Source: Alitta virens (lineage: Eukaryota; Annelida; Polychaeta; Phyllodocida; Nereididae). Taken from it: a stretch of 64,000 nt of DNA. The DNA lies in the NCBI GenBank assembly GCA_932294295.1, contig OW028578.1, forward strand, positions 38,090,685 through 38,154,684, read 5' to 3'. Positions 1,061 through 47,955 of the stretch are shown here, piece by piece; the stretch's first letter is position 1, and each line of letters starts with the position of its first letter. The notes beneath the pieces were generated by a model, which had not been told where the DNA came from, did no database searches, and saw only the letters and a program-made list of their open reading frames with translations. The position numbers and the translations under genes were made by a program.

Positions 1061-2213
1061 TTGCCTGGTGTATGATTTCACTCATACACGCATCTGTGAG
1101 TTTTTGCAGGTGCATCAAAGCACACTTACACGCCTGCTATTTTTTACAGCTATGTAATATATGACACTTTCACGAGAGTAAATTTATGCCATTAAATAAT
1201 GTATCAAAAAAAAGCTTATGTTAGATGACATCAATATGACAGCAATGATAGTACATGTCTAGTTGTACAATGAAAATGCTTCATTTATACTCCTAATAAC
1301 ATTTAAAGAATATATGTATGTATATCACAAAATAATATGCATCTGTAATTTCTATTCAATCAAACTTTACAGTTAGTACTTATTATTGCATTTTTCTACC
1401 TTGTGCAGGTTATATATAATGGCCTAACTTGTTATTCAACTATTCATGACTAACTTCTCAATATATTAGGTATTAGTGTATTTTTATTGTTTTAATCAAT
1501 ATAGATGATAAGAATGTTGCAAATGAACTAATCAGAAAAAAAAGGCATTGTTCTATCATGTATAGAAGCCAAGTAATTTCCAGTTGAATTTTTGCACTCC
1601 TTCAATATCTTCAGGTGAGTTAAAGATGAACGTTTTTAGTTAAAGAAAGTCAGGTGAGAAGGCCAAGGGAAAAAATTAGCAGTTTCTGAATATAGGCCAA
1701 GGCCAAAGGTCTAGGCAAAGGCAAAAAGAGTTTCTCACAGACGTGAGAAAAATGTAGCTTTGCCTAATATTTAATTGTGATTGTGATTTGGATGGGGTGC
1801 AATATTCCCATACATGTACATTTATTTTGAAGATGAAAAAATACAGTAATCTAGCCATTGGAGTAAGATATAAAATAAGTTAATGAACTTTTTATCAACA
1901 ACACACGTGGGTCAAGATGTGATGATGCAGGAGATCTGCGCATTGGCGCGTTCATCCACTGTTATACTGTGCGTTGTTGTAGTTGCATATACACAAATTG
2001 CGCGTGCGAGCAATACTACGTTCACGCATGCGTGTATATGTCAGAAAGTACATTATACAGGTCAATCATGAGAAAAATGTGCTTGTATATGCAAGCTATG
2101 GCAGTTGTGTACATGCTAAATATGACAAAACATATAGCTCTTATTTTCATGATCTATATCAACGGTAATTCACACACGTTTTTGATGCATTTCAGGTAGA
2201 GATGATAACATAG
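1061..2213. other. AT-rich intergenic DNA, no gene seen
   Basis: Only short chance ORFs on both strands. No splice-flanked coding exon or recognisable repeat beyond simple AT-rich sequence. Confidence 0.5.
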
Positions 2214-6555: not shown

Positions 6556-7207
6556 AAAATGCCAGATATTATTCCAAAATTTGGCATGTATCAGGATGTA
6601 ATTCAGCAGAATATTAAGGTATAGATTTAACCTACAATTATTGCCCAGATAGCACATCAAATAGGGGACGACATCATTGAAACATCAACCCATCGTTTTG
6701 TCACCAAATTGTCAGTCTGACAACTTGGCCCTTACTTGGTCATCTGTCCAGTGTCTGGTTAGCCCACGGTTGGCCTAGTGTTAGGTCAGCCCACTGCCTG
6801 GTTGATTCATTAATTTAACTGAATTATGAGTGTTGTTTCCCTCTCTCACTCCAATTTTTTTCTCTTTGTTTGCTTTCTCTGTCAAATTGTAAAAGGCACT
6901 TAGCCAGCAAACAAAACCCACCAAGCATGACTGTTTGTGACTTGGACATTCAAGCATGATGATTAGCTGGACTATTTTCGTCAAAGACAATAGAAACTGG
7001 TCACAACATCAAGTTCATGACAAATTCAAAGTTGTCAACTCTGAATAAACGCCATTGCAACCAAACTTTTAGTACCATTCATAATAATATTCTATGTGTT
7101 ACATAATTGGTCAAATTTTTCAATAACTAGATAGGGTACCGACAATTAAGCTGGACAAAATAAAATGTTCATACTGACAAAGATCAATCTAGTATAAGGA
7201 ATCTTAC
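6556..7207 (-). other. 5' part of the LRR gene intron
   Basis: Lies between the LRR exon donor (CCAG|GTAAG at 7208/7207) and the left repeat arm. A 27-base stretch near 7027-7053 is an inverted copy of sequence near 5130-5155. No coding signal. Confidence 0.6.
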
Positions 7208-8891
7208 CTGGACATTTCAAGTCCTCCAATGTCACATAATTCCAAATTTTGCCAAAGCAACGTTCAAAATAGGAAACTTTAATTGGTGTAGGATGTCTCT
7301 TTGCCCAGCATATCATTTCATTACACAACCCAGGGTTAGTGCCAAGGTAAACAGTCAGTTTATTGCATGTTACTCCAGTACACCAGCTGTATGGGTCTCC
7401 TAATTTGGTCAATTTATTTTCAGAGAGATGTATTTCAGTAAGTTGTGGCATGTATGCTAAACTATCAATAGGAAAATGTTCAAGAAGATTTCTTCTCAAA
7501 TCCAATTTATCCAATTTAGAACAACCATTGAGATAACCTGATGGAATGACAGATATTTTATTGCTGAACAGATTCAAAGTTAATAGGTTTGAACAGCTCT
7601 CATTAATATAAGGAGGTTCAGTCAGTTTGTTTTCAGAAATATCCAGTTGCATTAAGTTTTTGTTGAATCGAAAGGTTTCTTTAGGTAAGTATCAAATGTT
7701 GTTGTCATGGGCATCCAGTACTTGTAAGCTTGACAGGAGTGACAGATTTGGTAGCATTTGCAGCTTGTTACCATCAATGTACAACTTTACCAAGCTTGGT
7801 AGATCAATGGCTGCCTGATCTGTTTCCTTTGTGCCATTACTGCTGCAATTCTTTACAGGAATGTACTCTATGCCATTGTCTGATAAATCTATTAAAATAG
7901 CCTTTTTAATGGTATTTAAGGTGTTCACTTGAAGGCAGGTGTCACCAACACCACTTAACGCTAACGTCGTAATGTCTTCAAGACTATTAAACATCTGGTT
8001 AAGTTTAGCACCCCCCTGACCAGCCATTGATAGAAAAAAATCAATAGCATAGGGAAAGCTAGAGCAATTTGATGGGAGTGAAGCTATCTTTGTATCCATG
8101 GCCCAAAAAGCTCTGATTTTTGCCAATGGGCTGAAACATGGCATTGTAGTCAACTTTTTACATGAAGTGCATCTGAATGAGTTTAATAAAGGCAGGTCCG
8201 TAAAAGCATGCCATTCTGTCCTAACGAGTTCATAATTGTTTCTTATTTGGAGAACTCTTAATTTAATAAGTCCAGCAAATGTGTGATCTTCCAGGACAAC
8301 AAACTTGTTTTCATCTAAGTACAATGAGTACAAACGATCAAATCCCATGAAATAATTAGGCTCTATTGCTGATATTTCACATCCAACTAACTCAAGCATT
8401 TTTAGAGTAGATTTTGTTCTTTGAAAGTCAGGCATCCTCATCAGGCTGTTGTGACTGAGATACACAAACTCGACTCCTGCGTAAGGAAACACCAGATTCC
8501 AGGTATCATTTGTTATTGAGCAGTATTTCATGGAGAGTTTAGTCAGGATGCCATCAATGTTCTTGAAGAAAGGAACTGTCTTGATTGGGTTGTTATTCAA
8601 ATACAATGTTTTAACTTTTGTTCCATTGAAAGCATTTTCTGAGACATTTACAATTTTGTTCAATCCCAAGTCCACATGGATTATATTTGCCATTTTATTA
8701 AGAGTGTTGCCAGGTATCAATGTAAATGCATTAGAAATTAATTCGACATTAGTTACTGAAGCATCTATATCAGTTGGAATATCCACTAATGCTGCATTAT
8801 TTCTCTTGTACCATACCTCTCCATCCACTTTGATAACAATTATATTGAATGCCAAAAAAATTAATTTTAAAATAATCCAAACAACCTCCAT
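7208..8891 (-). CDS. Secreted leucine-rich-repeat protein, exon 1 (one in-frame TGA)
   Basis: The frame starts with an apparent signal peptide (MEVVWIILKLIFLAFNII, residues 1-24), followed by about 18 irregular LRRs (LxxLxLxxN units such as LYLNNNPIKTVP, LYLDENKF, LYIDGNKLQMLP, LDISENKL). A Cys-rich LRR C-terminal cap follows near residues 500-561 (GLCNEMICW, ERCFGK, DLKCP). Codon 400 (7694-7692) is TGA. Translation resumes in the same frame with YLPKETF and the 24-residue LRR period is kept, so one sense codon has become a stop. The exon ends at a consensus donor CCAG|GTAAGAT in phase 1, matching the PAN exon at 4954. Predicted total is 633 residues if the TGA is read through. No transmembrane segment is seen, so it is probably secreted. 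It may be a recent pseudogene, carry an assembly error, or use readthrough. Confidence 0.8.
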
Positions 8892-21157: not shown

Positions 21158-21459
21158 AATATATATATATATCGTTTTATTGACAAGCCTGATATCAGGA
21201 ATTGATACATGTGTCATACAACATTACAAAACAAACAAATATACAACATAACAAAAACAGGTCTAGTGTCTACATCTACTATATATACAATCTATAATCT
21301 ACCAGTATTTCTAAATATTTACTTGATAAAGTCGGTTCCAGTTTTGTTTACATATACATACATGACTATAAAAATGAGAGTTAATACTGTACAGGTCAAT
21401 ACTTCAAGTGGGTAATACTGTAATGATTTCAAAACAAATTTGAATAAAAAGTCAGTTAA

Positions 21460-21605
21460 AATGGCAAAAGAAGGTGTCCATGGGTTGGGTCAGTGGGTGG
21501 GGTCTTCAGAGCAGCATTGCGCTGACCTCTGAAATGGCGAAAGGGGGTGTCCATGGGCTGGGTCAATGAGTGGAATCTTCAGAGCAACATTGCGCTGACC
21601 TCTGA
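21460..21605 (-). repeat. Tandem 75-bp duplication in LINE-A 3' UTR
   Basis: Two copies of a unit containing GGTGTCCATGGG(T/C)TGGGTCA and GCAACATTGCGCTGACCTCTG lie between the ORF2 stop and the tail. Confidence 0.8.
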
Positions 21606-21679
21606 GATTGTCATCATGGGGTGTTTGAATTGAAAGGTTCCCTGTCTAGTGGAAGGGGGGCACCAATACTGAATTAACA

Positions 21680-24600
21680 TTATGAAAAAACTCTATTTAG
21701 AAAGTTGCCTAATGCCTTTAGCACTTCTGGATTCTTACATGACAATAGGGCTTGGAATTGTTGAGATTTTTCTAGGTCATGAAAATTAGGTATACTATCT
21801 GTTGCTATATTAAGTAATTCTAGCCTTGGTATTTCATTTTTATTACATGTCAGTAAGCAGTGAGATTCATCTTCTATTTCACCACTGTCACAATATTCAC
21901 ATATTCTCTCATGCAAAGGAATTTTTGGGGATTCATGTCTACCAGTTTCAATTTTAAGATTGTGGGAGCTAACTCTGAATCTTGCTATATTACTGTATGT
22001 TTTTTTGGGCAGATTTAACAGTAGGTATGGCTCAATGCAGTAGCTGGTTTTAAATGTTTTATAGGTCCTAAGTTTAGGTTGGGCGTTTGTGTCATTTATT
22101 TCATGAAGAATTCTATCCTTTTCATTGTCATAAAGTACTAGTTTTATCTTATTTGTCAGTACGCTGGGTTCTAGAGCTTGCCAATTAATTATGTTTGCTT
22201 CAGAGATGATATGCTTTACTTTAGTGTACCAGTTTCTCTGACCATTTGTGTGTAGTTTTTCTTGTATTTTCAAGCACTTATTTAATATTTCACTATTAGG
22301 CATTGTCTGAAGTCTTGCCCAGTAGTTTACTGTAGCAAGTTTTTGTCTGATGTGAAGTGTAAATCGTCCTGTTTCTGCATACACAGCTAAGGAAGGGGTT
22401 TGTTTTCGTACATTTAATACATTCTTCAGGTAACCTAATTGCACTTTCTCTATTTCAGAAATAGGTGAATTTTGTGACCATAGTACACTATTATATTCTA
22501 GAATGGGAAGTATATAACTGTCAAACATTTTTATGGCAAGCAAAGGGGGTATATGACCCAATGCTGGTTTAAGTTTACTTCGTAGAGCAAAGAGAGCCTT
22601 TTGGGCTTGGGTTATTAAGTGACTTGTCACCTTGTGATGTATGCGTTTATGGTTATTTGTGATGATGTGGCCTAGGTATTTATATGTGTCTACATTTTCT
22701 ATACTCTGAGTGTTATATATGAAATTAATAGAGCTTTTCGTACCAATTTTCATCACTTTAGTTTTTAATATATTCACTATAAGATGCCATTTAGCACAGA
22801 ATTTGTGCAGTGAATTGATACTGTTTTGTAGGCCTGCAGCTGAGTTAGATATGAGAACTATGTCATCTGCATAGAGGAGGTGAGTGAAATGTGTGCCGTC
22901 TATTTCTATTCCATTGTTTATACTTAGATGGTTTGGTAGGTCAGACATAAATTCATTAAATAGCTTTGGGCTTAAAATACCACCTTGCAGTACCCCAAAT
23001 ATACTTTCAATGGGAGGACTAATTTCTCCCAGCTGGTGGACTTTAGCTTGGGTTTTGTCAAACATACTCATGATGATTTTCAGCATTTTCTGGCTCATTT
23101 TTTGTTTGTGGAGTTTGTAATATAGCGCATTTCTGTTTATATAGTCAAAGGCTTTTGTGAAGTCTACGAAACATAGATATACAGGCATTTTTTTAAATTG
23201 TTCGTGTCTGATGATTGTGTCTAACACAAATACACAGTCAGTTGTTCCTCGAGAGGGAGTAAAACCGAATTGAAAAGGATCATCTAAGGACATGGCATCA
23301 TTTTTAAAATATAGCCTGGCATTAAGGATGGAGTCAAATATTTTTGCCATGGCAACTGTAATAGTAATTTTCCTATAATTGTCAGGATTTGAGTGATCTC
23401 CCTTTTTGTGCAGTGCATTAATTAGTCCCTCTGCCCACTGAGATGGATAATCACCTTTATCAAATATGAAATTGAAGATTGCACAAAATGGAACAATAAG
23501 TTCATTTTCAACACATTTATAGAATTCACCAGTAATGCCATCAATACCTGCTGCTTTATTATTCTTCAACTTTTTAAGATGTAGAGCTACCTCAGATTCT
23601 GTGATGTAGCTGTCACAAATATTTGCAGGGAGAGTGTCAATTATGTTGTTATCTGGGATGGTTTTAATTTTATGTATGTATTCATCAATTTCTGCCATGT
23701 GTTCTTGATCAAAATATGTGCATACTGGGGGATTAATCTGATTTTTAAAATAGCTATAGAATGTGTCTATATCTGGCAGATTCTGTGTTGTTTTATCATT
23801 ACTACTATTCGTGAGTTTATTCCATAATTTCCAACACTCTGTTTGATTGGTGGAGTGCAGTTGGTGTAATTTATCTCTATTTGACTGTAGGTGTAGTCTT
23901 TTCTTTCGCTGTATGATTCTTTTATAATTTTTATGCAGTAATTTGTAATGTTGGTTACAAGTAGTGATATTAATGTCATGTTTTACAGCATATTCATTGG
24001 CTGTTTTCCTAGCTTTTTTGCACTCTTCATCATACCATGAATTAGTTGGAAACTTGTTTGTCACAGATTTGAAATATTTATTTTTAAATATTGGGTCTAT
24101 ACCAGTTTTTATGTACTCATAAGTGGCATGTATTACAGCATCTGAACTAGTGTTCTCAGACAGTTGATTAGTTAAATGGAAAAGTTTTTCTTGGGCATAT
24201 TCACTGTTGAGAGCATCCTTGTAGTCTGTTACTCTAAACTTGTCAAAAGCATACCTATAGCGTTTATTATGATTAGAGTTTTTACTTTGCTTGCTGTTGG
24301 TATTAATACTACCAAGCATTGAATCTGTCGCGATTGAGAAAGTCAAAGGTGTGTGATCAGATTCCACCAATTTTGCACAAATTTTAAATTCATTTAATAG
24401 TTCTGTTAGTCTCTCTGTAGTGAGTAGGTAGTCCACCATACTTTTACCAAGGGGAGCATGACATGTGAAGTCATCTGTGTTATTGGGATTATAAAACCCA
24501 TTCATAATTCTCATGTTACTATTTTGACATAGTTGAATGAGGTCCTTACCGAAACTATTATGAGCCTTATCCCTTGTCTGTCTTACTTTAGATAGCCAGG

Positions 24601-25738
24601 TGGAGTTAAGTGAATATCCTAAATCTGAGTTTGTATTGTTTAACATTATTAAGTCATTGGTATCTTTACCATGTACATTTGGGGCTACATCATTTAGACC
24701 ACCTGTGCGACTATTGAAGTCGCCACAAAGAGCAACGAGTGGGGTGCATTGGAGGAACTTTCCAATATCATCTTGTAGGGCTTGGAAAATGTCATTACTG
24801 TTACTACTGTTACTATTCAGATAAACTTTTGAGCCAGCCGGTGGAATATATGTACCTCCAATAATTATAGCAGGGAGTGGATGTTTTTGTTTAATATGTA
24901 GCCAAATAACATTTTCATTGAACTTTTCTATTTTGATTAGATGTTTTACGCTATTTTTAATTAGGACAGCTATGCCACCTGCTGGTCTCCTTGCTCGAGG
25001 ATGTTTATATTTACGTTGACAGTGGAAGTATTGATAATTAGGGAGAGGGGGATTATAAGTATCAAGTTTCATTGTCTCAAAGAGAAATATCACTTCGTAA
25101 CCAGAGAGAAATTTACTTACACTATCTAATTCAAATTTACTGCCTATCCCTTGGATATTCCAGAAAAGTATGTTTATATTACCACGAGACATTTCACATA
25201 ACTGTTTATTTACATGAGGTGTCTTTAGTTTATTAGGTAGATAGCTTATATTTAGTATGTCCTTTCTCCTTATATTATTGCTACTACTGAGGCTTTTCTG
25301 ACTTGATATGGTTGAGTGAGCCAAGACATTTTTAGTTGAGTCTACAAAACCCTTAGCAATGGCATTATTAATTAAGTCTAAAACATCATTATCAATGGCA
25401 TTTTTAGTTAAGTCTACAAAATCGTTTTCAATGGCATTATTAGTTAAGTCTACAAAATTTTTATCAATGGCATTTTTAGTTAAGTCTACAAAATCATTAT
25501 CAATGGCATTATAAGTTAAGTCTACAGAATCATTATCAGTTAATTCTATGTTTATATTTACCATATGTCGTCCATACTTATTGTTTGTGTTAGAAATTCC
25601 CATTTGTGCCCCCCCACCAGGAACAGGGGTGTTGAAGCAGATGTCTTTACATGACTGGGTGGCTGAAACCAACTCATCGAAACCTTTGTATGGAGTCAAG
25701 ATAGGGTTTCTTAACGATTGAGGCGATACGTCGGCCAA
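21680..25738 (-). CDS. LINE-A ORF2: endonuclease-reverse transcriptase with SIM-like repeats
   Basis: The 1352-residue protein has an N-terminal extension. Residues 69-140 are six tandem 12-residue units of the form NDFVDLTKNAID. An APE-type endonuclease follows at about 188-470 (NILFWNIQG, FETM, GGTYIPP, CGDFN, MVDYLL, ESDHTPL). The RT domain spans about 718-1000 (GIDGI, NYRKI, FVDFTKAFD, GVLQGGILSP, LLYADDIVLI with YADD at 956-959). A C-terminal Cys/His knuckle starts at 1280 (CEYC, then H and C). Endonuclease and RT catalytic residues appear intact. The protein would nick target DNA and prime reverse transcription. Its ATG lies inside ORF1, 62 bases before the ORF1 stop, suggesting coupled or reinitiated translation. 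Clade not assigned. Confidence 0.95.
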   Translation of the reverse strand: MADVSPQSLRNPILTPYKGFDELVSATQSCKDICFNTPVPGGGAQMGISNTNNKYGRHMVNINIELTDNDSVDLTYNAIDNDFVDLTKNAIDKNFVDLTNNAIENDFVDLTKNAIDNDVLDLINNAIAKGFVDSTKNVLAHSTISSQKSLSSSNNIRRKDILNISYLPNKLKTPHVNKQLCEMSRGNINILFWNIQGIGSKFELDSVSKFLSGYEVIFLFETMKLDTYNPPLPNYQYFHCQRKYKHPRARRPAGGIAVLIKNSVKHLIKIEKFNENVIWLHIKQKHPLPAIIIGGTYIPPAGSKVYLNSNSSNSNDIFQALQDDIGKFLQCTPLVALCGDFNSRTGGLNDVAPNVHGKDTNDLIMLNNTNSDLGYSLNSTWLSKVRQTRDKAHNSFGKDLIQLCQNSNMRIMNGFYNPNNTDDFTCHAPLGKSMVDYLLTTERLTELLNEFKICAKLVESDHTPLTFSIATDSMLGSINTNSKQSKNSNHNKRYRYAFDKFRVTDYKDALNSEYAQEKLFHLTNQLSENTSSDAVIHATYEYIKTGIDPIFKNKYFKSVTNKFPTNSWYDEECKKARKTANEYAVKHDINITTCNQHYKLLHKNYKRIIQRKKRLHLQSNRDKLHQLHSTNQTECWKLWNKLTNSSNDKTTQNLPDIDTFYSYFKNQINPPVCTYFDQEHMAEIDEYIHKIKTIPDNNIIDTLPANICDSYITESEVALHLKKLKNNKAAGIDGITGEFYKCVENELIVPFCAIFNFIFDKGDYPSQWAEGLINALHKKGDHSNPDNYRKITITVAMAKIFDSILNARLYFKNDAMSLDDPFQFGFTPSRGTTDCVFVLDTIIRHEQFKKMPVYLCFVDFTKAFDYINRNALYYKLHKQKMSQKMLKIIMSMFDKTQAKVHQLGEISPPIESIFGVLQGGILSPKLFNEFMSDLPNHLSINNGIEIDGTHFTHLLYADDIVLISNSAAGLQNSINSLHKFCAKWHLIVNILKTKVMKIGTKSSINFIYNTQSIENVDTYKYLGHIITNNHKRIHHKVTSHLITQAQKALFALRSKLKPALGHIPPLLAIKMFDSYILPILEYNSVLWSQNSPISEIEKVQLGYLKNVLNVRKQTPSLAVYAETGRFTLHIRQKLATVNYWARLQTMPNSEILNKCLKIQEKLHTNGQRNWYTKVKHIISEANIINWQALEPSVLTNKIKLVLYDNEKDRILHEINDTNAQPKLRTYKTFKTSYCIEPYLLLNLPKKTYSNIARFRVSSHNLKIETGRHESPKIPLHERICEYCDSGEIEDESHCLLTCNKNEIPRLELLNIATDSIPNFHDLEKSQQFQALLSCKNPEVLKALGNFLNRVFS
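25319..25534 (-). repeat. 36-bp tandem repeat in ORF2 encoding VDLT-type units
   Basis: Six in-frame copies of a 36-bp unit near AATGGCATTTTTAGTTAAG. Each encodes a hydrophobic-acidic core (SVDLT, FVDLT, FVDLT, FVDLT, VLDLI, FVDST) flanked by Asp/Asn/Glu. INIELTD just upstream resembles a seventh core. Confidence 0.9.
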
Positions 25739-27356
25739 GCATCATCTTTGAGGCATATGACAGATGGATATTATCTTGAAGTTTCGAGTTGTTGTTGTCA
25801 AGGTAACTTATCATGCGCTCATTTAAGGCCAGATGTTGCATAAGTGCGTTTACCCTTTGAATGGACTGGCGTCTCTGCAGGTTGCCGACGATAGTGAGTC
25901 CGACCAGGATTATCCGGGACCAAGGGTAAACGAGTTGTAGTTCACGAACCACTCTTTCATATTGTGAGTTAATCTGGTTGGGGGACATTGCATTTGCCGC
26001 TTCAATATCGCCCGCCATGAGGACAATATGGCTTGGGTCTGGACCGTGTGGGATGTGACGTATGCGAGTGCCAATGTACTCCAATGTACCACCGGGGTAG
26101 AAAACAGATTTTGCCGAGAGTTCATTTTCACTGAGAAAACTGGCCATCTGACGCACATTAGAATTTCCAATGATTAGCACGGTTGAATTTGTTGAAACGG
26201 GTACCGGCAGGCACCGAGCACCTGATGAGTTGTGTGATGAGCTGTGCGGGGTAGTATTCTGATTATTCAATGAAGGGGCTTTGTTAGTACTGTTTGCGGT
26301 TATGGGGAATGCTGGTTTGCTTTTAGGGGCTGGAGACTGACTGGTCCAGGCCTTTCTTTTTTCCATGGGAGCAGTAGGTGGTACGAGGAGTGAGGACTGA
26401 TTCAACTTCAGTCTTTCTCTTAGCTCTTCAAGAAGGTTTCCCATCATATTCAAACCCATCAAGTTGGGACCGCATCCCCAATAACTGTCTGTTTCAATGT
26501 TGTGGATCAATCTCTTATTCCCCGTTTTGACAAGTGTTTCACTGAACAAACGACACTGCTTCACCTTAGTATTGAGAATTTCAGCCATAATGGAGGACTT
26601 AGCCTCATGCCATTGTTCACACTTTCGGAATGTTTTGCTGATTTCTTTGGCTTGAGCAGGTGTCCTCGCATGAAGTATTTTGTGAGCAACATCAGTGCGG
26701 GCATGGTACATGGCCATCTGATACTGATAGGCATGCTCCGCACTTCCAAAGTTCATGCCATTGTACGTCAACTTAGTGGGATAGAAATTGGAAAGCACCG
26801 AGAGGTTTCCATTTGACCGGAAAAGGGCAGCTTCCTTCTCTGTGGTGGAGCTTCCTATCACAAGAGTCTGTGTACTTTTGTTAGAGGGACGTTTTGGGTT
26901 TGTATCTACTGAGGGTTCTATGCTGGGCATTGGTGTGGAGGTCAGTAGATCAGACATGTCGCTCCGATGTATTGTGTGATCAGTCATGGGGAGAAGAGAT
27001 GGAGATGCAAGTAATGACTGGGACAGGGCAGATCGCATCAATGTGCCATGATGAGATTGGGGTGTAGCAGCAACCTCATCCTGGGACTGAGTTGATATCA
27101 GCAAAGAGTCATTTCCTTGTGTAATTGGCTGTGTGTCAAGAACATAGTTTTGCAAGGATTTATCGATAAATGAAAGTTGACTCTCGGTGATGGTGGAATC
27201 AACATCAATAGAATGTTGATCAGGATATACAAAGGCATCATGATGTTGTTTTCGAGCATTGCGTAAGGGCTGAATTCTCGTGCGTTTTGGAGCCTCAGTA
27301 GTCTGGGCAGGAGAAAACAATGCTGAGACCTGTGAAAATGCTGCTTGAAAGGCCAT
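25674..27356 (-). CDS. LINE-A ORF1: NADAR domain plus SGNH-hydrolase-like domain
   Basis: 560 residues. Residues 1-170 are low-complexity and Ser/Thr/Gln-rich. Residues 176-316 match the NADAR (YbiA-like) fold: LSNFYPTKLTYNGMNF, SAEHAYQYQ (Glu207), TPAQAKE, W249, MAEILNTKVKQ, LLxTG-like spacing, D290-SYWGCG, GLNMMGNLLEELRERL. A Ser/Asn/Pro linker follows. Residues 392-548 resemble SGNH hydrolases: VLIIGNSNVRQM (block I, Ser399), LMAGDIEAAN, and DNIHLS with Asp528 and His531. Esterase-like domains are known in CR1-type ORF1 proteins; a NADAR domain beside one is unusual. No zinc knuckle or RRM was seen. Expected to act in the retrotransposon ribonucleoprotein. Confidence 0.88.
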   Translation of the reverse strand: MAFQAAFSQVSALFSPAQTTEAPKRTRIQPLRNARKQHHDAFVYPDQHSIDVDSTITESQLSFIDKSLQNYVLDTQPITQGNDSLLISTQSQDEVAATPQSHHGTLMRSALSQSLLASPSLLPMTDHTIHRSDMSDLLTSTPMPSIEPSVDTNPKRPSNKSTQTLVIGSSTTEKEAALFRSNGNLSVLSNFYPTKLTYNGMNFGSAEHAYQYQMAMYHARTDVAHKILHARTPAQAKEISKTFRKCEQWHEAKSSIMAEILNTKVKQCRLFSETLVKTGNKRLIHNIETDSYWGCGPNLMGLNMMGNLLEELRERLKLNQSSLLVPPTAPMEKRKAWTSQSPAPKSKPAFPITANSTNKAPSLNNQNTTPHSSSHNSSGARCLPVPVSTNSTVLIIGNSNVRQMASFLSENELSAKSVFYPGGTLEYIGTRIRHIPHGPDPSHIVLMAGDIEAANAMSPNQINSQYERVVRELQLVYPWSRIILVGLTIVGNLQRRQSIQRVNALMQHLALNERMISYLDNNNSKLQDNIHLSYASKMMLGRRIASIVKKPYLDSIQRFR

Positions 27357-27509
27357 TTTAGCTCAGCTGCTGCAGAGTCCGTTTTCTGGTCCTGCAACAG
27401 GGAGGGTAACAGAGTAGACACTGGTACGATATAGTGGTAATAATAATGGCTCATCAAGTGGTAATAATAACGAACAATAGTCTTGACCAATATATTGATA
27501 AAGCCTAAC

Positions 27510-27577
27510 TATAGTATAGAGCCTTACTATAGTATGTTACAAATATAGTATAGAGCCTTACTATAGTATGTTACAAA
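27510..27577. repeat. 34-bp tandem duplication
   Basis: Two copies of TATAGTATAGAGCCTTACTA... just upstream of the LINE-A 5' region. Possibly part of its 5' UTR. Confidence 0.8.
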
Positions 27578-29084
27578 TATGCCACTTTATTGAGAAACAA
27601 TGATGGGAAATCCCCTACAAAAGGGGAATTCCCGGGAAAAGCTTAATGCAAAATTTACGGAGTATCTAAAATGTGAAGGAGTAATTTAGATGATTAATCT
27701 CACTCCTAGTTCAGCACAATTTTAGTTGCACAAGTTAGTTGTGGTTAGTTTAACTTTTAAACTTAGTTTTGGTGATCAGCAAGTCAAAGTATAGCCCCTA
27801 ATTGACGTAATTTGCGCCAAAATCCGTGGGCGATAATACAGTGAATGAGGCGCAAAAATGTAAACAAGTTTACCGGCGTTTACCGGCGTGCCTTTAAACG
27901 GTCAGTTTAAGCAATCAACATAACATTTTGACTCGGAAATTTAGGTTATCATTGAGCAATAAGATCTAAACACTGTGTGTGTACTGTCGTTATCAATAAA
28001 AGTTACAATAGTAAGTAGAAAACTTATCTTTTGGTGGAGCAACTCTGGAACACCTCCTCTCAGTCCGACCGTCATATATCATTAGCAATTTCATAAATAT
28101 TATATTATATAATACACCTGTAAAGTATTCGGTTATAAATACTAATTTAATGCCATAGATTTTAATGCAAATTAACAACCCAACAATTCACGAACTGTTG
28201 AAGGGACTATAGCAATTGATGATATATAATTCCTTCAGTTGCCAACTAAATGTAAACAGCAAGCAAAATATATTTTGATTGATAAAGGGATTAAAATGGG
28301 TGTGTTGAGTAATAACAGAAAATATGGAAAAAATGCTTCAAGTTGCGTTGCTTCCTTCCTATTTGTTAGCATCCCATGCTTAGCAATGACAGCCATAAAC
28401 ATTGTACAATTCATGTTCATGCAATTATTTAATATTTGATCATAGTATTGACATGCTCAACCCATTCAACAGTTTTTGTTTATAATAAGCAATTTCATAA
28501 AAATTAGTTGCATAATGATCTAAATTACTTTCACTTGACTCCAATACTTATTGTTTTCTTCATATACACCTGTAAAGTGTTCGGTTATAAATAATAATCT
28601 ACATGCCATAGATTTAATGCAAATCAGCAACACAACAACTCAGTAACTGTTGAAGGGAATAGCTAAATGTAAAAAGTAGGCATTAAAATGGGTGTGTTGA
28701 GTATCATATCATACAAAATAAACCTTTAAGATTTGTATTTATTTGTATTTAGACTTTATTTATTTGAATACAAGTAAATACAAACCTTAAAGGTTCATTT
28801 TGCATGAAATTATACCCGACATCTTTATGTGGCATAACATTGTTGCTGAATTGCATGTATATTCCTTAGGATCATTGCCATATTCCATATATTACTATTT
28901 TGGACATATAAATGATAATCGCAGTTGTAGATTAGTTAGGGGAACATGCTATTGTGTTGATAATTCTAGCGAACTGAATACTCCTTATTGTGCATAAAAT
29001 CTTTGAAACAGAACGATTAAATGGCAGGAAAAGGATAGACAATACTTTTTATGCTCACTTGGCTTTACTCTGAACAGAATGGAT
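27578..29084. other. Intergenic with repeat fragments
   Basis: No gene. Includes GTTTACCGGCGTTTACCGGCG near 27870, two diverged direct copies of CACCTGTAAAGTGTTCGGTTATAAAT...TTAATGCAAATCAGCAAC (about 28105-28200 and 28565-28650), and a copy of the GCATCCCATGCTTAGCAATG repeat at 28360-28480 shared with 16250 and 21040. Confidence 0.55.
28714..28802. repeat. Foldback hairpin, 36-bp arms
   Basis: CAAAATAAACCTTTAAG... (28714-28749) and its inverted copy (28767-28802) differ at about three positions, with a 17-base loop. Possibly a small MITE remnant. Confidence 0.8.
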
Positions 29085-29731: not shown

Positions 29732-31066
29732 ATGGTGCTAACGCCACAGGCAACTCATGCATCTGAAAATTCCACACAAGAAGAAGCCACGACTCAAGAA
29801 AATAGCCAAGGATTGTACAAATGCCCTCTGGACACTTTGGATATCAATATGGCTACCCATGAAAACACCACTGCTCCAATGCAACAGCCAGAATGGTTCA
29901 AAGAGGTGAGAGAAAAACTCTCTAACATTGATATACTTGGCGATAAACTTGCAAATATCAGTAATAAGCTGGATGAAGTGAAGGATTCCGTAAACTTTGC
30001 ATGTGAATCTGCTAAAAATGCAATTGAAAGAGCAAGCAATGCAGAAAAAATTTCAATTACACTGCAAAATGAAAATTCTCAACTCAAAAATGATATTGCT
30101 TCAATACAAATTAGACTTGTTCAAATGGAGTGTCAATCAATGGCATTACGGAAAAGATGGGCAAAGAGACGTGGGAAGATTGTGAGACTTCAGTAAAATA
30201 TATTTTTTTGCAAAACTTTGGGCATTAATGGTGCCCCTACCATTAAATTTGAACGTGTCCACAGATTAGGCCCAAACAAAGCTGACAAAAAAAGACCAAT
30301 AATAGCAAGATTTTCAAGCTTCAAAGACCGTGAATTGATATGGAAAAGCCGACATAAACTGTTAAAATCAAACTTTAGTATACTTGAGGATTACCCGGTT
30401 GAAATTCAAAATGAGCGCAAGCTGCTATTTCTAATCCTCAAGGTGCTAAAAACTCTGGATCATGTTGAGTCTGCTTCATTGAAACTGGACAAACTGTACA
30501 TAAATGGAAAGTGGTACACATCAAAAACACTCCACAAACTGCCTGCCAATCTCAAGGTGCAAACTTTATTCACCAGAAGTGAAAAGGGTGTAACTCTTTT
30601 CTGCTCCAAGTACTCACCTTTAAGTAACCTGTATTCTGAGGCAGAATTCACTATTGATGGTGAGCACTACATTTCTACTGAACAATATATTCAGCACGCA
30701 AAAGCTACACTATTTCATGATGACCTTACTGCTGTCAAGATAAAAGCTGAAACTAACCCCTACATAATAATGGGACTAGGCAAAATGGTGAAGGGCTTCA
30801 AGCCAGCTATATGGAAGAAAGATGTGCGTTCTGTCCTGAAGAAAGCATGCTCAGCTAAATTCCACCAGGTGGCCTTTGCTAGAGAGACCCTGTTGGCAAC
30901 TAATAATGACCTGATTGGAGAGGCTACTCTTGACAAAACCTTTGGAATAGGGCTGCACCTTACAGATGAAGCTGCCAAGGACCCTTCAAACTGGTTGGGA
31001 GAAAATACTTTTGGCAATATCCTGCAGGAAATTCGAAATGAACTGAAAAAACACTTTACCAAATGA
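29732..31066 (+). pseudogene. LINE-B ORF1: coiled coil, RRM-type and NADAR domains (frameshifted)
   Basis: Segment 1 (29732-30196, 154 codons) ends in a coiled-coil-like region (KLSNIDILGDKLANISNKLD... LQNENSQLKND). The protein then changes frame: GITEKMGKETWEDCE is readable in another frame around 30143-30190, preceded by a small deletion. A 7-T run near 30204 shifts into segment 2 (30218-31066, 282 codons). Segment 2 has the L1-ORF1-type RRM/C-terminal signature (FERVHRLGPN, RPIIARFSSFKDRE, FSILEDYPVEIQ, ERKLL). Its residues 127-278 are a NADAR domain (FCSKYSPLSNLYS, STEQYIQHAKA, W199, KFHQVAF, LLATNN, GIGLHLTD, NWLGENTFGNILQEIR). The parental protein was an RNA-binding ORF1p fused to NADAR. 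Confidence 0.85.
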
Positions 31067-32028
31067 TTTCTGTAATTTGGATTTCCCTCAAAAATTGACC
31101 CCCCGATTACCATTTGAATTATTGTGTTATTTTTAATTGTATCAAATGTTTCAATTACATGTATCAGGTGATATTTTCACAATGTATTTATAAATATAAT
31201 GTTGTGTATTATAGATGAGGAATAACTATTAACACAGAGTATAGCTTGGCATAGAAAGGGTGGCTTTTAATCCAACATATAATGCAGTGTATGTCATGTA
31301 ATGCTCAGCTACAGCTGGTAAACTGCTTAAACTTAAGGTTACAGAAGTATTTCAAAGCCCCCTTTTCCAGGGGTCAGTTTGCTATTGGTTCTCTCTACTC
31401 CAGTGCACATATACATGGCCTGTTCTTATTGGCTTGTGCCTTGGGGTGGACAGTGGTTACTACCCCCATCTCTGGTTCACTTATCTTTGTTTAAGTTTTA
31501 GACTTTAAATGCCTTAAAGCAGGCTTGCTTAAAGTTCTTATTACTGAACTCTTAGGTCATAGTTCAGTAATACATAATAGATTGATATTTTGTTACATTA
31601 ATACATTTTGACTATATGACAATAAAACGCCTTTATTTAGAAAACACTCCAACAAAGTTAGTGACCTGTCTACACTAGCAAAATATGTTATTCAGATTCA
31701 AATTTATGCTAGTATTGCATCCTCTAATCTATGTACATTATGAATCATATTTGGAAGTTTGTATTTTGCAGGGCAGAACTTTGCTGCCTACTTTGCTCTC
31801 TGAAGTAATATTGATAATAATTCTTATTTTTATTTATTATTAATCTGATAATTATAGCTTTTTTTTTTATTACTTTTGTTTTCTTCTTTTATGATTTATG
31901 CCTCTAAATATTAATGTTAATTGTTCACAAAGCAATCAAATACTCAGCCATGCTACTTCACTTTGTATTTTTAAGTTTCAGACAGATCCTTGCAGACCAC
32001 TGCCAGCACTTGTATTTAAACCAGAAAT
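31067..32028 (+). other. LINE-B inter-ORF region
   Basis: About 960 bases between ORF1 and ORF2 with no open frame of note. Unusually long for LINE ORF spacing; it may include an insertion, but no TIRs or target duplications were seen. Confidence 0.4.
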
Positions 32029-35000
32029 ATGGAATCCCTACTAGATATTCTAAACACTGGAGATGGTAATGATGACAATAATCATGATGAGATGCCAAAT
32101 CTTTTTACCCATTCACCTTATTTTGATAATGCTTCTGCTATAAAAGTTATGAAAAGTACAAATGGTTCACCTTCAATACTAAGTTTAAACTGTCAGTCGT
32201 TGCAATCTAAATTTGATCAACTACTAATATATCTACAATTATTTGAAGATGCTAACTGTCCTTTCTCTATTATTTGTTTACAAGAAACTTGGTTAAAAGA
32301 TAATTATGATGTGTCTCTTTTGCAGCTTGAAGGCTACAACTTCATCCATGCTAGAAGCTCCTGCAATTCACACGGTGGAGTTGCCATGTATATAAGAGAT
32401 AACTTGGAATATAGAATCTTACATATAAATGGTGATAGAACTATATGGGATGGTCTATTCATTGAAATTTTACTCGAAAATGAAGGAATTCAAAGAAAAA
32501 TTATAATTGGAAATATATATAGACCCCCTAGAGATACTTCTGACAATTTTAGTACCTTCTTTAATGATATTGATGAACTACTTACCTCATTTCATAGAAC
32601 AAATGATGTCATATTGGTGGGTGACTTCAACATTGACCTGTTAAAAATTTATCATAAACCTCAAGCTAAAGAATTTTTTGATATTGTACTAGCTAATAGT
32701 TTCCTACCTAAAGTTACCATGCCAACCAGACTAACTGATACGAGTGGTACTCTTATTGATAACTGCTTTGTTAAAATTACAGAAAACATTTCAGAAACTA
32801 CAGCAGGAATACTTTATCATAATATCTCCGACCATCAGCCATATTTCATATTATTAAACCACTTGACAACATCGCGAAATAACAGAAGAAAAATTAAAAC
32901 ATATTCTAATTCCTACGAGGCCAAAAGTAACTTTAAAAATGAAATTCTACTTACCTGTGATACTCAAAACTTTGAAAACTCTACAAACACTGACCCAAAT
33001 ACAAATTATAATAAGTTAGATCAAATATTACAAAATGCACTAGATAATCATATGCCGAGTAGAATAATGAAGTATAACAAACATAAACACAAGAAAGGCT
33101 CATGGATTACTAAAGGTATAATTCGATCTATCAAATTCAGGGATAAACTTTATAAAACACTGAAGTCAACTGATATTAATTCCGAAAGATGTAACACATA
33201 CAAAATAAACCTACAAACTTAAAACCGCATACTAAAACAAAATATACGTTTAGCAAAAAAGACATATTATCATTCTTGTTTTGAAATAATTAAAAAAAGA
33301 CATCAAGAATACATGGCTAACAATAAAGAATATTTTGAATACACAACAAAATGTCAAAGAATTTCCTAAGTACTTTCTCATAGATAATATTAATGTTAAT
33401 GACCCTAAATTAATTGCAAATAAATTTAACGATTACTTCATAGAGATAGGTCCCACCCTAGCTGAATCCATAGGGCCACCAACTAGAAAATCATTTAATG
33501 ACTATCTTATGAATCCAGTACACACTAACTTTGAATTTAAAGTGGTGACTGAAAAAAACTGTTAAAGAAATTATAGAAAACCTAAAACCTAAAACAAGCT
33601 GTGGGGTAGATAGATTATCCAATAAATTACTAAAATTTATAAAAGATGAAATAGCCAAACCATTAACCATGATCATTAATCAATCATTACAAACTGGTAT
33701 ATTCCCTGATAAATTAAAATTAGCCAAAGTTTTGCCTATACATAAGAAAAATGATGACAATATTCTGGATAATTATCGTCCAATATCAGTTCCTCCCACC
33801 ATCTCTAAAGTATTAGAAAGAATAATGTATAATCAAATATATAATCACTTCACTGAACTTAAACTTTTCTTAGACAGTCAATATGGTTTTAGGACTAAAC
33901 ATTCAACAGAACTTGCGGCACTTGAATTAATTGGTATAATAGTTGTTAAAATGGACCAAAATAAAATCCCTCTAAATATTTATCTAGATCTATCCAAAGC
34001 TTTCGACACCATAAATCATGAAATTCTTATATATAAATTAAAACATTATGGTATTATTGGAAACTCACTAAATCTACTTAAAAGTTATTTAACAAACCGT
34101 AAACAGTATATTGAATTAGGAGAAACTATATCTAATTATCTTAATATAACGACAGAAGTTCCACAAGGCTCGATCTTAGGCCCTTTATTTTTATGATTTA
34201 TTTAAATGATTTAGTTAATGCAACAGACAAATTTTATCCAATAGTATATGCAGATGACACTGCCCTCTCTACAACACTAAATGCTTTTAACTCCTTAAAT
34301 GTAAATGCTGAAGTAGAAATAAATCAAGAACTTAATAACATAAATGATTGGTTTAAGCTTAATAAACTCTCTTTAAATCTAAATAAAACAAAGGCGATGT
34401 ACTTTCACTTTCCAAATAAAGTTGTAAGACCTATGAACTTAAAAATTGACAATACTGACATTGAATTTGTCACTCATTTTAATTATTTAGGTATCATAAT
34501 TGACACACATCTGTCGTGGAAGTCACACACCAATATGATATCCCAGAAAATAGCCAAAATAATTGGTATTATGTGTAAAATGAAAAAGTTTGTCCCTTCA
34601 ATTATTTTACAAACAATATATAGTTCACTAATAACTCCTTATTTAAATTATGGAATTTTAACATGGGGCACTCAAGCATCAAAATTATGCAAGTTACAAA
34701 AAAAGGGCTTTCAGAATTATTTCAAACTGAAAATATAATGCCCATACCGACCCACTTTTCATAAAATTTAATGTTCTGAAGGTAACAGATCTGTGTGCTC
34801 TGCAGGAACTTAAGTTTGCCTTCAAGCTGGAAAACGGAACTCTTCCATCTTATTTCACGAATTCTATGTACCAAAGACACTCTGAAATTCACCAATATGA
34901 AACCAGAAATGCAAATAATTTGGTCACCCCACAGAGTAAGCATTATTTCACAAACAAAAGTATAAGATTTCGTTTGCCCAATATATATAATAATTGTCCA

Positions 35001-40646: not shown

Positions 40647-42490
40647 CAGACAGACAAAGACAGACAAAGACATTTATTTACACAAAGAGACACACATTTC
40701 ATATACAGACATTGTTTGAAACATACATAGACAAATAGACAAATAAACAAGTAAATAAATATTTAAAATGTATTTTTCTCTATGTGTGGGAGGCCTCTCT
40801 AAGGTCTTAAGACCGCTATCGAGAGGCCACCCAGGCGTTTAAAGGTAGGCTGAAATCTCCTGAGTCACCGATTACAATTTATCAAGTAAATAAAATATTT
40901 TAAGAATAATAATAGTAACAATAATGATAATAGAAATGACTGGACAGAAACATTGATGAACAAAATACTAAATGAAATTCACATGCTATTGTTACAAGCA
41001 TTTTCTATTTAGAACCTGATTAAATGAAATTCACATGCCATGTTGAAGTTACTGAAACGAAAATCACATGCTACTTTTACAAGCATTTTCTGTGCAGTGA
41101 ATGACTTTTGGTTCATCACCTCCGAATAAAAAGTATACTGGATATCTTAGAACCCCATAAAATAAGATGAACTGTAGAAAATTAGTAATTAAAATTCACA
41201 AAAGGGATGTAATGAGTGCAACACAGGCATTTATGAAGCAAAGCTCACCCTGAAGAGGACTGACAAATGTAACAATTTCTTATTAAGCAATTTTCTTTAT
41301 AATTGTTTAGATAGTCATTGTTGATATATTTTGCGAATCCAGAAAGACTGGGTGTAAATTTTGTTTATGATAAGCGGAACACTATTATTATAAGCCATGG
41401 GAATTATATAATGAATGCCATGTTTGGCAAATTCATGCCCAACTCTGGGAATATGGCATGCATTGGCAGATCTGGTGTTGTGTCGATGAATCTTTCTATT
41501 TTTTACAAATATGTTGTCTTGAAAGTAAGCGGGTACCAATTTGTTCTCTAATTTGTAACAAAATTTTAATTCTTGAAGGTTACATAGATCATTAACTTTC
41601 AGAAGGCTTAGATACTTAAAAATTGGTTCTGTGTGAGCATTGTATTTCGCACCCATTATGATTCTGACAGCTTCCTTTGAAACTTTACAACTGAATTAAT
41701 CTTTGATTTCCAACAAAGAATCCCATAATTATTGAGATATGGCATGAATAAGCTATAATATAAAACGAGAAGGATATCCTTCGGGATAAAATTTTTCATT
41801 TTTAACATTATTCCTATAATTTTAGACATTTTCAAGGATATCTTATGAATATGAGACTTCCAACTAAGATGTGTATCTATTGTAATTCCTAGATAGTTAA
41901 AAGAATCCAGAAAGTCTATAATTGTACCATTTATCATAATATTTGGATAATTCACATTTTTGCGTACAGTATGAAAAAGCATGGCCTTTGTCTTGGAAGA
42001 ATTTAATGATAATTTATTAAGTTTTAGCCACAGAGAGATATTTTCAAGTTCTGTATCTATATTTCTATCCCTGTTTTGACCTGCACTGTCAAAGGCACTT
42101 AAAGTTGCAGATAATGCTGTATCATCAGCATAGATGATGGGTTTAAAGATAGGGCTAGACAAATTAAGATCATTTATATATATTATGAAAGGTAATGGCC
42201 CTAAAATTGATCCCTGAGGGACACCTGTTTTAATTGGTAATAATTCAGAACTGATATTGTCCATATAGATATATTGCTTTCGATTAAATAAGTAATTCGT
42301 AATCAGCTATAATGACTTGTCTTTCACACCATATTAACATAATGTGTCAAAGGCCTTAGATAAATCAAGGAAAATAGCCAGAGGTACTTCTTTCTTATCC
42401 ATACTATTGATGATTCTGTTAGTAATTTCTAATGCTGCCAATTCAGTTGAATGTGATATCATAAAATAAATTGAATCTTGAGAAGTAGGA
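40647..42490 (-). mobile_element. LINE-C: 5'-truncated element related to LINE-B
   Basis: Minus-strand order: RT (42490-41656), C-terminal domain (41656-41315), 3' UTR with an 8-bp stem GGCCTCTC/GAGAGGCC (40792-40799, 40821-40828), AATAAA and a TGTCT-type tail (about 40680-40647). The RT and C-terminal protein are clearly similar to LINE-B but from a distinct subfamily. Confidence 0.8.
41315..42490 (-). pseudogene. LINE-C reverse-transcriptase remnant
   Basis: Readable pieces: HSTELAALEI and FLDLSKAFDT (42490-42330, stop-interrupted). Then a 202-codon frame has GVPQGSILGP, INDLNL, IYADDTALSATLS, LNKLSLNSSKTKAM and YLGITIDTHLSWKSH. A 113-codon frame continues with LQELKFCYKLENKLVPAYF and RHNTRSANA. 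The two last frames abut at 41656 with a frameshift. No endonuclease. Confidence 0.88.
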
Positions 42491-46818: not shown

Positions 46819-47955
46819 TTATACCATGTTACTATCCCATGGACTATTTGTCCTCTTTAAGACAATCTTCGTTGTTTGCAATGACATATCCCGATAATGA
46901 GAGCGCGATCGCTGTGTGCATCCACGGCATTTTTGAAAACACAATGTGTCCGCTAGTTCTGATCTAAACTTGTTTCCAGTTAAGCAATATAGGAGAAAAT
47001 TGATGCCATGATTGGTGTACATCAGCAGAAAACATACAGTGCGAATCAACAAATTTCTTGCGCGTTCGTTCATGTCTTTCGGTGTGATCTTCTGGCTGTC
47101 CATAAGAGAGCGAGCCGTGAAGGGAGCGGTAAGAGTCAACCACACAAAAGATACAGTTAACAGCATGACAGTGATTCTATACTGAGCCATTTTGTTAGCG
47201 GAGCTCTCTGTACTTCTTCGGAGACTGTCTTGCTGGAAGGCTTTACGCGACTGCCACAACTTGCAAGTTATCAAAACATTAAGGATAATTACTATGATAA
47301 AAGGCACAATGGTGTAAGAGGCTAGTTTGAGTAACGGATAGGTGTTCAGCATGAAATGGGATTGAGATGCACATTTCATACGTCCACGTACGTGCAGCAA
47401 GTCTATGGTCCAGAACAAATGTAGCTTGTATAAACATATCGCGATGAACAGGATGGCTGTAATGATTCGCGCTCTCCGAATGTCACATAATCTGTTTGCT
47501 CGCAATGGGCACCATATGACAATAAATCTATCTGTTGTCATGGCAACCACTAACCAAGCACTAGAATGGGTCGACACCATGAAAATGAACATCAACGTCT
47601 TGCACCCCACCCAGCTTACGTGCAGCAATTCGAAATCTGTAGTGACGCGAATCCATGTTCGAAAAGCGCTCGAGTACAACACGCACGTGTCGGTGACGGC
47701 TAATATCGCCAAGTAAAAATAGACAGATGTGTTTCTCATCCTCTTACGTATCAAAACCAGGAAGGAGAGCAAATTTCCTATGGTCCCACATCCCACCACC
47801 AGGGGAAAACCATAAGTGACAATTGCCATGGCGATATGGTATTCCGGAATGCCATCCATTGGACTGGTCCTATAGGTGGCAGCGGTGTGTTGGGTGTTAT
47901 TGTCTAATGGAACGAAGGCCAACAGGTCCACTTCTTCAGTGTCATTCGATTCCAT
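46819..47955 (-). CDS. Class A (rhodopsin-like) peptide G-protein-coupled receptor
   Basis: 378 residues in one coding exon. Seven membrane segments fit with class A landmarks: GTIGN (Asn61, helix 1), LAILAVTD (Asp89, helix 2), Cys118 before helix 3 paired with Cys195 in loop 2, TDRF at 141-144 in place of DRY, Pro218 in helix 5, Pro278 in helix 6 (the usual CWxP Trp/Cys are replaced: LTLTAPF), and NFLLY at 319-323 for NPxxY. The N terminus has a likely N-glycosylation site near NNTQ and no signal peptide. Overall style resembles invertebrate FMRFamide/TRH/ghrelin-like neuropeptide receptor expansions, which are often single-exon. The ligand cannot be told from sequence. A splice acceptor at 48214-48213 suggests an intron in the 5' UTR. 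Confidence 0.92.
   Translation of the reverse strand: MESNDTEEVDLLAFVPLDNNTQHTAATYRTSPMDGIPEYHIAMAIVTYGFPLVVGCGTIGNLLSFLVLIRKRMRNTSVYFYLAILAVTDTCVLYSSAFRTWIRVTTDFELLHVSWVGCKTLMFIFMVSTHSSAWLVVAMTTDRFIVIWCPLRANRLCDIRRARIITAILFIAICLYKLHLFWTIDLLHVRGRMKCASQSHFMLNTYPLLKLASYTIVPFIIVIILNVLITCKLWQSRKAFQQDSLRRSTESSANKMAQYRITVMLLTVSFVWLTLTAPFTARSLMDSQKITPKDMNERARNLLIRTVCFLLMYTNHGINFLLYCLTGNKFRSELADTLCFQKCRGCTQRSRSHYRDMSLQTTKIVLKRTNSPWDSNMV

Follow-up and report, generated by a model that had tools for sequence, protein, structure and literature searches.

Our analysis of 64,000 nucleotides of the Alitta virens genome (contig OW028578.1, positions 38,090,685 to 38,154,684; hereafter the window) revealed a LINE, here termed class A, whose ORF1 joins a NADAR domain to an SGNH-fold domain, a fusion already claimed by a sequence-only reading of this DNA and on which profile, fold and alignment now agree. 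The NADAR is likely to serve the retrotransposon RNP as an accessory domain directed at ADP-ribose.

The full-length class A element occupies 21161..28070 on the minus strand (approximately 6.9 kb), as delimited by blastn against seven other genomic copies. Its 5′ end, GGTCGGACTGAG..., is common to the window copy and two of these seven, and its 3′ end, ...CAATAAAACG(AT)n, to the window copy and all seven; the host repeat flanking the element stops at 28112 and resumes at 21161. The 5′ untranslated region (27357..28070, minus strand) runs from the shared 5′ end to the ORF1 ATG, and the 3′ untranslated region (21161..21679, minus strand) contains a 73-bp tandem duplication (21459-21605) and the AT-repeat end. 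Including that of the window, the genome holds eight near-identical, stop-free class A ORF1 copies, with further NADAR-SGNH families bringing the distinct groups to at least five; the NADAR is present in many copies and families of the element, and the absence from all other copies by which the sequence-only reading could have fallen is not observed. The 3′ flanks of the eight copies all differ, and the 5′ end is common to three of the eight. Near-identical copies scattered through the genome, which share ends but not flanks, together with an ORF2 encoding an endonuclease and a reverse transcriptase, identify class A as an APE-type non-LTR retrotransposon. A 10-bp candidate target-site duplication, ATTAATAATG, was spotted by eye in one copy (L016) and is not clear in that of the window. 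Rfam gathering and tRNA scans of the window were both empty.

ORF2 (21680..25738, minus strand) is an open frame of 1352 aa, counted from a TTG that is not necessarily its true start, and overlaps ORF1 by 65 nt. Its endonuclease domain spans residues 192-445 (24404..25165; Exo_endo_phos 1e-9) and its reverse transcriptase domain residues 777-1026 (22661..23410; RVT_1 4.1e-28). A sequence search against the PDB tied R2 (4.7e-20) with L1 (2.3e-19), matches that do not settle the reverse transcriptase clade. VDLT repeats, with a pattern count of 4 in the window ORF2 against 0 in each of 26 relatives (P0040-P0065), several of which begin downstream of the repeat region, are likely not a feature of the ORF2 family.

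ORF1 (25674..27356, minus strand) is intact and encodes 560 aa. Its N-terminal region (residues 1-175; 26832..27356) is mostly of low confidence in the structural model, with pLDDT below 60 in each ten-residue block up to 170. There follow the NADAR domain (residues 176-322; 26391..26831), a poorly conserved linker (323-388; 26193..26390) and the SGNH-fold domain (389-552; 25701..26192). The profile search bore out the NADAR assignment: residues 184-317 match Pfam at 6e-27, with scores of 95.3 bits for PF08719 (cut-off 35.1) and 92.5 for TIGR02464 (cut-off 73.7). The modeled domain has the YbiA-like fold and matches the ADP-ribose-bound structure 8bau with an rmsd of 2.0 A. This fold is shared with YbiA (2b3w) and the P. 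nicotianae NADAR (8bau), and the Glu, Trp and Asp-x-x-Trp-Gly residues of YbiA recur in the window domain; in contrast, both known proteins are stand-alone and carry Lys and Glu where the window has M214 and H285.

Sequence databases yielded 37 homologues. In the 37 aligned LINE rows, from which P0038 was dropped and in which P0039 was included though class B by architecture, E207, W249, D290 and W293 are invariant and H285 is present in 36. E207 occupies the catalytic/ribose Glu position of the hydrolases (Pn E43, C7 E88). H285 sits at the position of Pn E125, where Glu, Asp or His is allowed, and represents the phage state: T4 gp30.3, a very divergent NADAR on a long tree branch, likewise has His there, but unlike the window it keeps the Lys. 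It is this Lys (Pn K50, C7 K95), seven residues beyond the Glu, that is expected of an active guanine-ADPr hydrolase and that is M214 in the window. Among the 37 rows, 21 have Met at this position, 13 have Lys, two Cys and one Arg. The comparison with 14 NADARs from bacteria and phages, including T4, showed Lys there in every case. In the E. coli C7 NADAR, K95 is reported as essential for ADPr-guanine hydrolysis, with Arg alone able to substitute, in vitro (PMC11543638). Because the essential Lys is Met, removal of ADP-ribose by the window ORF1 copy, as put forward in the sequence-only reading, is doubtful, although it is plausible for the Lys-keeping sister families and for class B NADAR LINEs. 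Loss of active-site residues from the family alignment, named in that reading as a ground for refuting it, has thus occurred in part: the Glu, Trp, Asp and Trp have endured, and the Lys has given way to Met in more than half of the rows.

The SGNH-fold domain is related to the esterase of the ZfL2-1 retrotransposon (profile match 1.2e-14), and here too the active site is partly retained. The Ser-Asp-His triad and the oxyanion Gly are present (S399, D528, H531 and G422), and the S/D/H residues are almost invariant across the aligned rows. The oxyanion Asn (ZfL2-1 N195) is replaced by I451; among the 35 rows that have a residue at this position, P0039 excluded, just one has the Asn. The transposon-specific His191 and Ser228 are M447 and V485 in the window, although nine of the 13 K-type rows have Ser at position 485.

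A second NADAR LINE, overlooked by the sequence-only reading, lies on the plus strand at 29732-34738. This class B element comprises an ORF1 N-terminal piece (29732..30196) with weak coiled-coil-type hits; a further ORF1 piece (30218..31066) with a region that we take to be RRM-like from its resemblance to such sequences, and a C-terminal NADAR (~30605-31048; Pfam NADAR 3.3e-30); an ORF2 endonuclease piece (32029..33222; Exo_endo_phos 2.5e-12); and a reverse transcriptase in two overlapping frames (33669-34196 and 34193-34738; RVT_1 1.8e-20 for one match and, falling short of the curated cut-off, 1.3e-5 for the other). The second ORF1 piece matches 8bau at 1.5e-7 and is 30% identical to P0039 over 271 columns. 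Its model is poor (mean pLDDT 56); the fold search nonetheless placed NADAR structures on top (8bau 5.6e-4, 2b3w 2.2e-3) and gave nothing convincing for the RRM-like part. The window class B NADAR retains Glu, Lys and Glu, and six of the eight class B rows have the Lys. Across the genome there are 762 NADAR candidates; all 150 that were scored exceeded the cut-off, 107 of these showed no overlap with a class A match, and the 20 that were opened all proved to be class B.

Four relatives have ORF1 and ORF2 contigs of equal lengths, and in these the conservation of the NADAR roughly matches that of ORF2: the NADAR values are 67, 61, 58 and 57% and the ORF2 values 65, 62, 63 and 61%, respectively, whereas the linker reaches only 8-33%. 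Cross-family pairs are mostly saturated at synonymous sites; between L020 and L022 the dN/dS is 0.06 for the NADAR, itself near-saturated (pS 0.73), and 0.41 for the linker. Among the eight young copies, pN/pS is 0.32 for the NADAR, a moderate purifying signal, and 2.62 for the SGNH domain, where the few, non-independent changes carry no such signal.

We propose that class A ORF1 would be a component of the RNP that combines two domains of enzymatic origin. A host ADP-ribosyltransferase may mark guanine in the retrotransposon RNA or first-strand cDNA with ADP-ribose, and the linked ADP-ribose could block translation or reverse transcription. The NADAR would act on this ADP-ribose on the element's own nucleic acid and, on our proposal, be kept by selection because it does so. 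The mark would most likely be hydrolysed in Lys-keeping families, both those among the SGNH sisters and those of class B with its coiled-coil-like ORF1; the window clade, with its Lys-to-Met change, would most likely still bind ADP-ribose-like ligands, its hydrolytic chemistry having been lost or changed. The SGNH domain probably serves RNP or membrane association, as proposed for ZfL2-1. We favor this division, with catalysis in the Lys-keeping families and either binding or altered enzymatic activity in the window clade, tentatively and with somewhat less than even confidence. It is in keeping with reports that all NADARs tested in one study, T4 and YbiA included, reverse guanosine-ADPr on RNA (PMC11833690) and that guanine-ADPr in DNA is likewise acted on by NADARs (PMC11543638). 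Circumstantial support for host marking may come from the N2-guanine DNA ADP-ribosylating activity described in six edible clams (PMC11209040). The Scabin-like ART family PF22596 gave no match in this genome, but likewise none in any of 14 control genomes.

Parallel erosion of the active sites of two enzyme domains within one protein, through loss of the catalytic Lys to Met in the NADAR and of the oxyanion Asn in the SGNH domain, would also suit a non-catalytic scaffold in which both folds were exapted to bind RNA, nucleotides or protein partners within the RNP, with no class A ADP-ribose chemistry. We consider this unlikely, for the invariant NADAR residues and near-invariant SGNH S/D/H residues go beyond the needs of a plain scaffold, and the Lys persists in 13 of the 37 LINE rows and in most class B rows. 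Conversely, the window clade might remain a fully active ADP-ribosyl-guanine hydrolase in which H285 together with the nearby basic residues K237, K241 and K253 compensates for the lost Lys. K237 and K264 are present in 37/37 LINE rows, K253 in 33/37 and K241 in 24/37, and T4 gp30.3, which shares the H285 state, is reported to be active (PMC11125620). This alternative seems improbable, however, since T4 and the other bacterial and phage NADARs all have the Lys, for which C7 tolerates only Arg.

Alternatively, the substrates could be small NAD-derived molecules or RNA NAD caps rather than ADP-ribosylated nucleic acid. YbiA is described as an N-glycosidase of riboflavin intermediates (PMC11543638), and for viral NADARs, chiefly those of phages, soluble ADPr derivatives have been put forward as substrates (PMC9503650). 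The same source argues that NADARs of eukaryotic RNA viruses target primarily macromolecular ADP-ribosylation, and the location of the LINE domain within an RNP protein further lowers our estimate, such that we give this possibility little weight. Least credible by far is the one-off capture of a functionless host NADAR exon: the eroded active site is the one observation in its favor, and the idea is contradicted by conservation between families, by the 37 database homologues and by the several NADAR-SGNH groups of the genome.

NADAR domains in LINE ORF1 are already known. They have been described in ORF1 of Crassostrea gigas Tx1 LINEs and within the Pol protein of a Gypsy lineage from Ectocarpus (PMC12477816), where their role was left unclear and RNA processing was suggested; the relevant passages of that report make no mention of an SGNH fusion, two LINE architectures, residue loss or copy-number scale, and we found no published report of SGNH fusion, the two classes, lysine loss or scale. 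ZfL2-1 ORF1p (PDB 4c1b; PMC3905857) resembles the window ORF1 in its SGNH-type domain with Ser, Gly, Asp and His kept, but is described as a coiled coil plus esterase, lacks a described NADAR, and has the oxyanion Asn and the transposon-specific His and Ser that the window has not. Positive-strand RNA viruses of invertebrates offer a further parallel, carrying a NADAR inside the replication polyprotein of an RNA-based parasite (PMC9503650), although these NADARs are viral and those of LINEs retroelement-borne.

The occurrence of NADAR in a second ORF1 architecture and in the Gypsy Pol of a brown alga speaks for repeated use by retroelements. It is conceivable, though we regard it as less likely than our favored reading, that the two ORF1 architectures gained their NADARs in separate events and multiplied them to at least 150 matches in the genome as a counter-defence, the host ADP-ribosylating guanine of retrotransposon RNA or cDNA to defend itself against transposons and the Lys-to-Met clade being an escape or decoy stage of this arms race. 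What NADARs do in the various eukaryotes is described as unclear (PMC11125620). The genome has at least 150 NADAR matches, of which those opened all sit in retrotransposons. Some keep every catalytic residue and others have lost the key Lys; together they constitute a natural mutant series that makes it testable whether retrotransposon nucleic acid is ADP-ribosylated in animals and whether LINE ORF1 removes or reads the mark. If so, ADP-ribosylation would join the known host barriers against LINEs.

A YbiA query recovered 23 bacterial loci, six of which, with YbiA itself, entered the first tree. Relatives of the LINE NADARs were confirmed in none of the 3 pattern-matching stretches from a viral_contigs scan with P0001, the 73 from a scan of the prokaryote genome_contigs with A3 or the 92 from a viral_contigs scan with A3. 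In the tree with T4, class A needs two changes; with T4 left out, class A NADARs form one clade (100/98.6), and neither the holding together of classes A and B (p-AU 0.132) nor that of class B alone (0.347) is rejected.

The window carries a young LINE of the kind we call class A, in which ORF1 (25674-27356, minus strand, 560 aa) joins a NADAR domain to an SGNH domain. Because the 5′ and 3′ ends are common to copies, its full span can be placed at ~28070-21161 (minus strand). By blastn, the 5′ end GGTCGGACTGAG was found in three of eight class A copies (the window copy and two others), and the 3′ terminus CAATAAAACG(AT)n is common to all eight, with differing 3′ flanks. A host repeat, intact in a copy elsewhere, matches the left flank down to 28112 and resumes at 21161 in the right flank. 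A tblastn search of the source genome (G000; 671 Mb, 23 contigs) with ORF1 gave at least 102 matches, a lower bound from scoring 78 of 756 first-look candidates. Eight ORF1 copies are stop-free with 95-100% identity over 553-560 residues, confirming that the NADAR ORF1 proposed by the sequence-only reading is present in other copies of this LINE. Long pieces of the window element are ~97.5-99.6% identical to seven other copies and some shorter pieces 93.5-94.7% (blastn); the database ORF2 protein P0040 shares 99% identity with the window ORF2 over 81% of the query region. The element has probably been mobile recently. Elsewhere, five NADAR-SGNH ORF1 matches lie inside 100 kb (C14:3.89-3.99 Mb) at a spacing of ~21-27 kb, a cluster that looks like local duplication; its single opened member, L037, has Lys at the position of P. 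nicotianae NADAR K50 (K-type).

Homologues of ORF1 numbered 37 at E <= 0.001 in a protein database search, 36 with a precomputed NADAR, and at least 42 at 1e-10 in a family-profile search scoring the 7990 candidates sharing most words. Pairing of ORF1 with ORF2 is probably conserved in relatives, since four ORF1 homologues have a longest contig equal in size to that of an ORF2 homologue (7023, 7018, 6716, 6928). These four are 67, 61, 58 and 57% identical to the window in NADAR, close to the 65, 62, 63 and 61% of their ORF2 proteins; the linker (residues 323-388) is 8-33% identical. The source genome holds further NADAR-SGNH groups: L020/L021, at 620 aa; L022; L026 with its relatives, which reach 536 aa; and L037, at 529 aa. 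Of 20 regions fetched, L025 and L039 showed no NADAR-SGNH ORF. Between L020 and L022, dN/dS was 0.06 in NADAR, where pS (0.73) comes close to saturation, compared with 0.14 in SGNH and 0.41 in the linker; synonymous sites are saturated in most other cross-family pairs. Among the eight young copies, pN/pS summed over 28 pairs was 0.32 for NADAR, 0.50 for the N-terminus, 0.65 for the linker and 2.62 for SGNH (14 summed synonymous changes). This last value argues against recent purifying selection on SGNH, although the changes behind it are few and non-independent.

In the C7 NADAR, residues E88, K95 and D171 have been shown to be important: K95 is essential, although Arg can stand in for it in vitro. 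Their P. nicotianae counterparts are E43, K50 and E125 (PMC11543638). We counted residues on 37 LINE rows, dropping P0038 and keeping the class B protein P0039. The loss of active-site residues that the sequence-only reading named as counting against it is partly seen: E207 (equivalent to E43), W249, D290 and W293 are each 37/37, as are K237 and K264, but the K50 position is Met in 21 rows (M214 in the window), Lys in 13, Cys in two and Arg in one. At the E125 position, 36 rows carry His and P0039 carries Glu. Bacterial and phage NADARs, in contrast to the window, keep the Lys in 14/14 (two nearly identical); their E125 position is Glu in 13 and His in phage T4 gp30.3, the same state as in class A. 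The SGNH residues singled out earlier, Ser399, Asp528 and His531, are indeed kept, as is G422. The ZfL2-1 oxyanion N195, however, aligns with Ile in the window, and P0034 is the one row with Asn there. Two transposon-specific residues of ZfL2-1, His191 and Ser228, correspond to M447 and V485; Ser at 485 is retained in 9/13 K-type rows. From M214 and the missing oxyanion Asn, with other residues kept, the NADAR and SGNH domains of the window clade thus each lack one catalytic-site residue. Since the Met clade is itself conserved across many families, we infer that these losses reflect a change of function and not decay.

A second kind of LINE, class B, has a coiled-coil-like ORF1 with a C-terminal NADAR. 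Its window copy (29732-34738, plus strand) comprises an N-terminal piece with weak coiled-coil-type matches (29732-30196) preceding the NADAR ORF (30218-31066; NADAR 3.3e-30), with endonuclease and reverse transcriptase pieces downstream (32029-34738). The NADAR ORF is 30% identical to P0039 across an RRM-like part and NADAR. A PF08719 search of the source genome yielded 762 candidates; 150 were scored and every one exceeded the cut-off, giving at least 150 NADAR matches. By hand count, 43 of them overlap class A ORF1 matches, which leaves 107. The 20 opened from this remainder (L040-L059) are all NADARs of the second kind: at L041, L043, L044, L048, L053, L056 and L057 the NADAR is C-terminal in a long open frame of 421-508 aa, and the other 13 are shorter or fragmentary. 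Exo_endo_phos lies downstream at all six loci checked (E 8.5e-7 to 0.033; above the curated cut-off at L048 only). At the start of ORF2, before the endonuclease, a PHD-like finger scored below cut-off at L046 (3-791, minus strand; E 7e-4) and L048 (2279-3334, plus strand; E 6e-3); PHD fingers are reportedly present in CR1-like LINEs.

Across eight class B rows, the E125 position is always Glu, and the K50 position is Lys in six, with Arg in P0039 and Gln in L048. Trp293 is likewise kept in six, being replaced by Phe in the window copy and by Tyr in L053. The L048 family (520-1932, plus strand), with Gln at the catalytic-Lys position, is possibly a separate loss of the Lys also lost in the class A Met clade. 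In a NADAR tree without T4, class A formed one clade (support 100/98.6) and class B fell on the phage/bacterial side. A single clade of all LINE NADARs is not rejected (p-AU 0.132); tree and residue types together nevertheless favour separate NADAR captures by class A and class B.

NADAR in retrotransposons is already known, because PMC12477816 describes it in an Ectocarpus Gypsy lineage and also, in a single sentence, places it in the ORF1 of Pacific oyster Tx1 LINEs. Within the openly licensed literature, judged partly by title, we found no further report on NADAR in LINEs, nor mention of a fusion with SGNH, of two architectures side by side, of the missing Lys or of the copy-number scale; the NADAR-SGNH and two-class form is thus a new, informative addition. 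NADARs including T4 and YbiA are described as reversing ADP-ribose linked to guanosine on RNA, but not ADP-ribose at phosphate ends (PMC11833690), and guanine-ADPr in DNA is also a substrate (PMC11543638). A clam enzyme activity makes N2-guanine ADPr in DNA (PMC11209040); that NADARs would erase the product of this clam enzyme is an assumption of PMC11543638 itself. A search of the source genome for a Scabin-like ART gave no match, with control searches equally silent. On the simplest reading, NADAR would be an ADP-ribose-directed accessory domain within the retrotransposon RNP, acting as an eraser in Lys-keeping families; in the Met clade it would bind ADP-ribose or have an altered enzyme activity.

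Relatives of ORF2 among the best 120 of 279 include molluscan proteins (Mactra antiquata 32%, Patella caerulea 29%) and Candidatus Thiodiazotropha symbiont MAG records, which probably hold host DNA. The ORF2 N-terminus of the window's class A element contains about six 36-bp tandem repeats (25327-25538, minus strand) encoding NDFVDLTxNAID, in which VDLT resembles a SUMO-interacting motif; the VDLT pattern was absent from 26 ORF2 relatives, several of which begin downstream of the repeat region. The window further contains, all on the minus strand, reverse transcriptase fragments at 51-812 (RVT_1 3.1e-15) and 41656-42264 (RVT_1 6.9e-10), a leucine-rich-repeat protein in two adjoining ORFs (7146-8891) and a rhodopsin-type 7TM receptor in one 378-aa ORF (46819-47955). 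At 59388-60568 the same strand has three open frames, each of 381-391 aa, that overlap one another and could stem from a repeat array.
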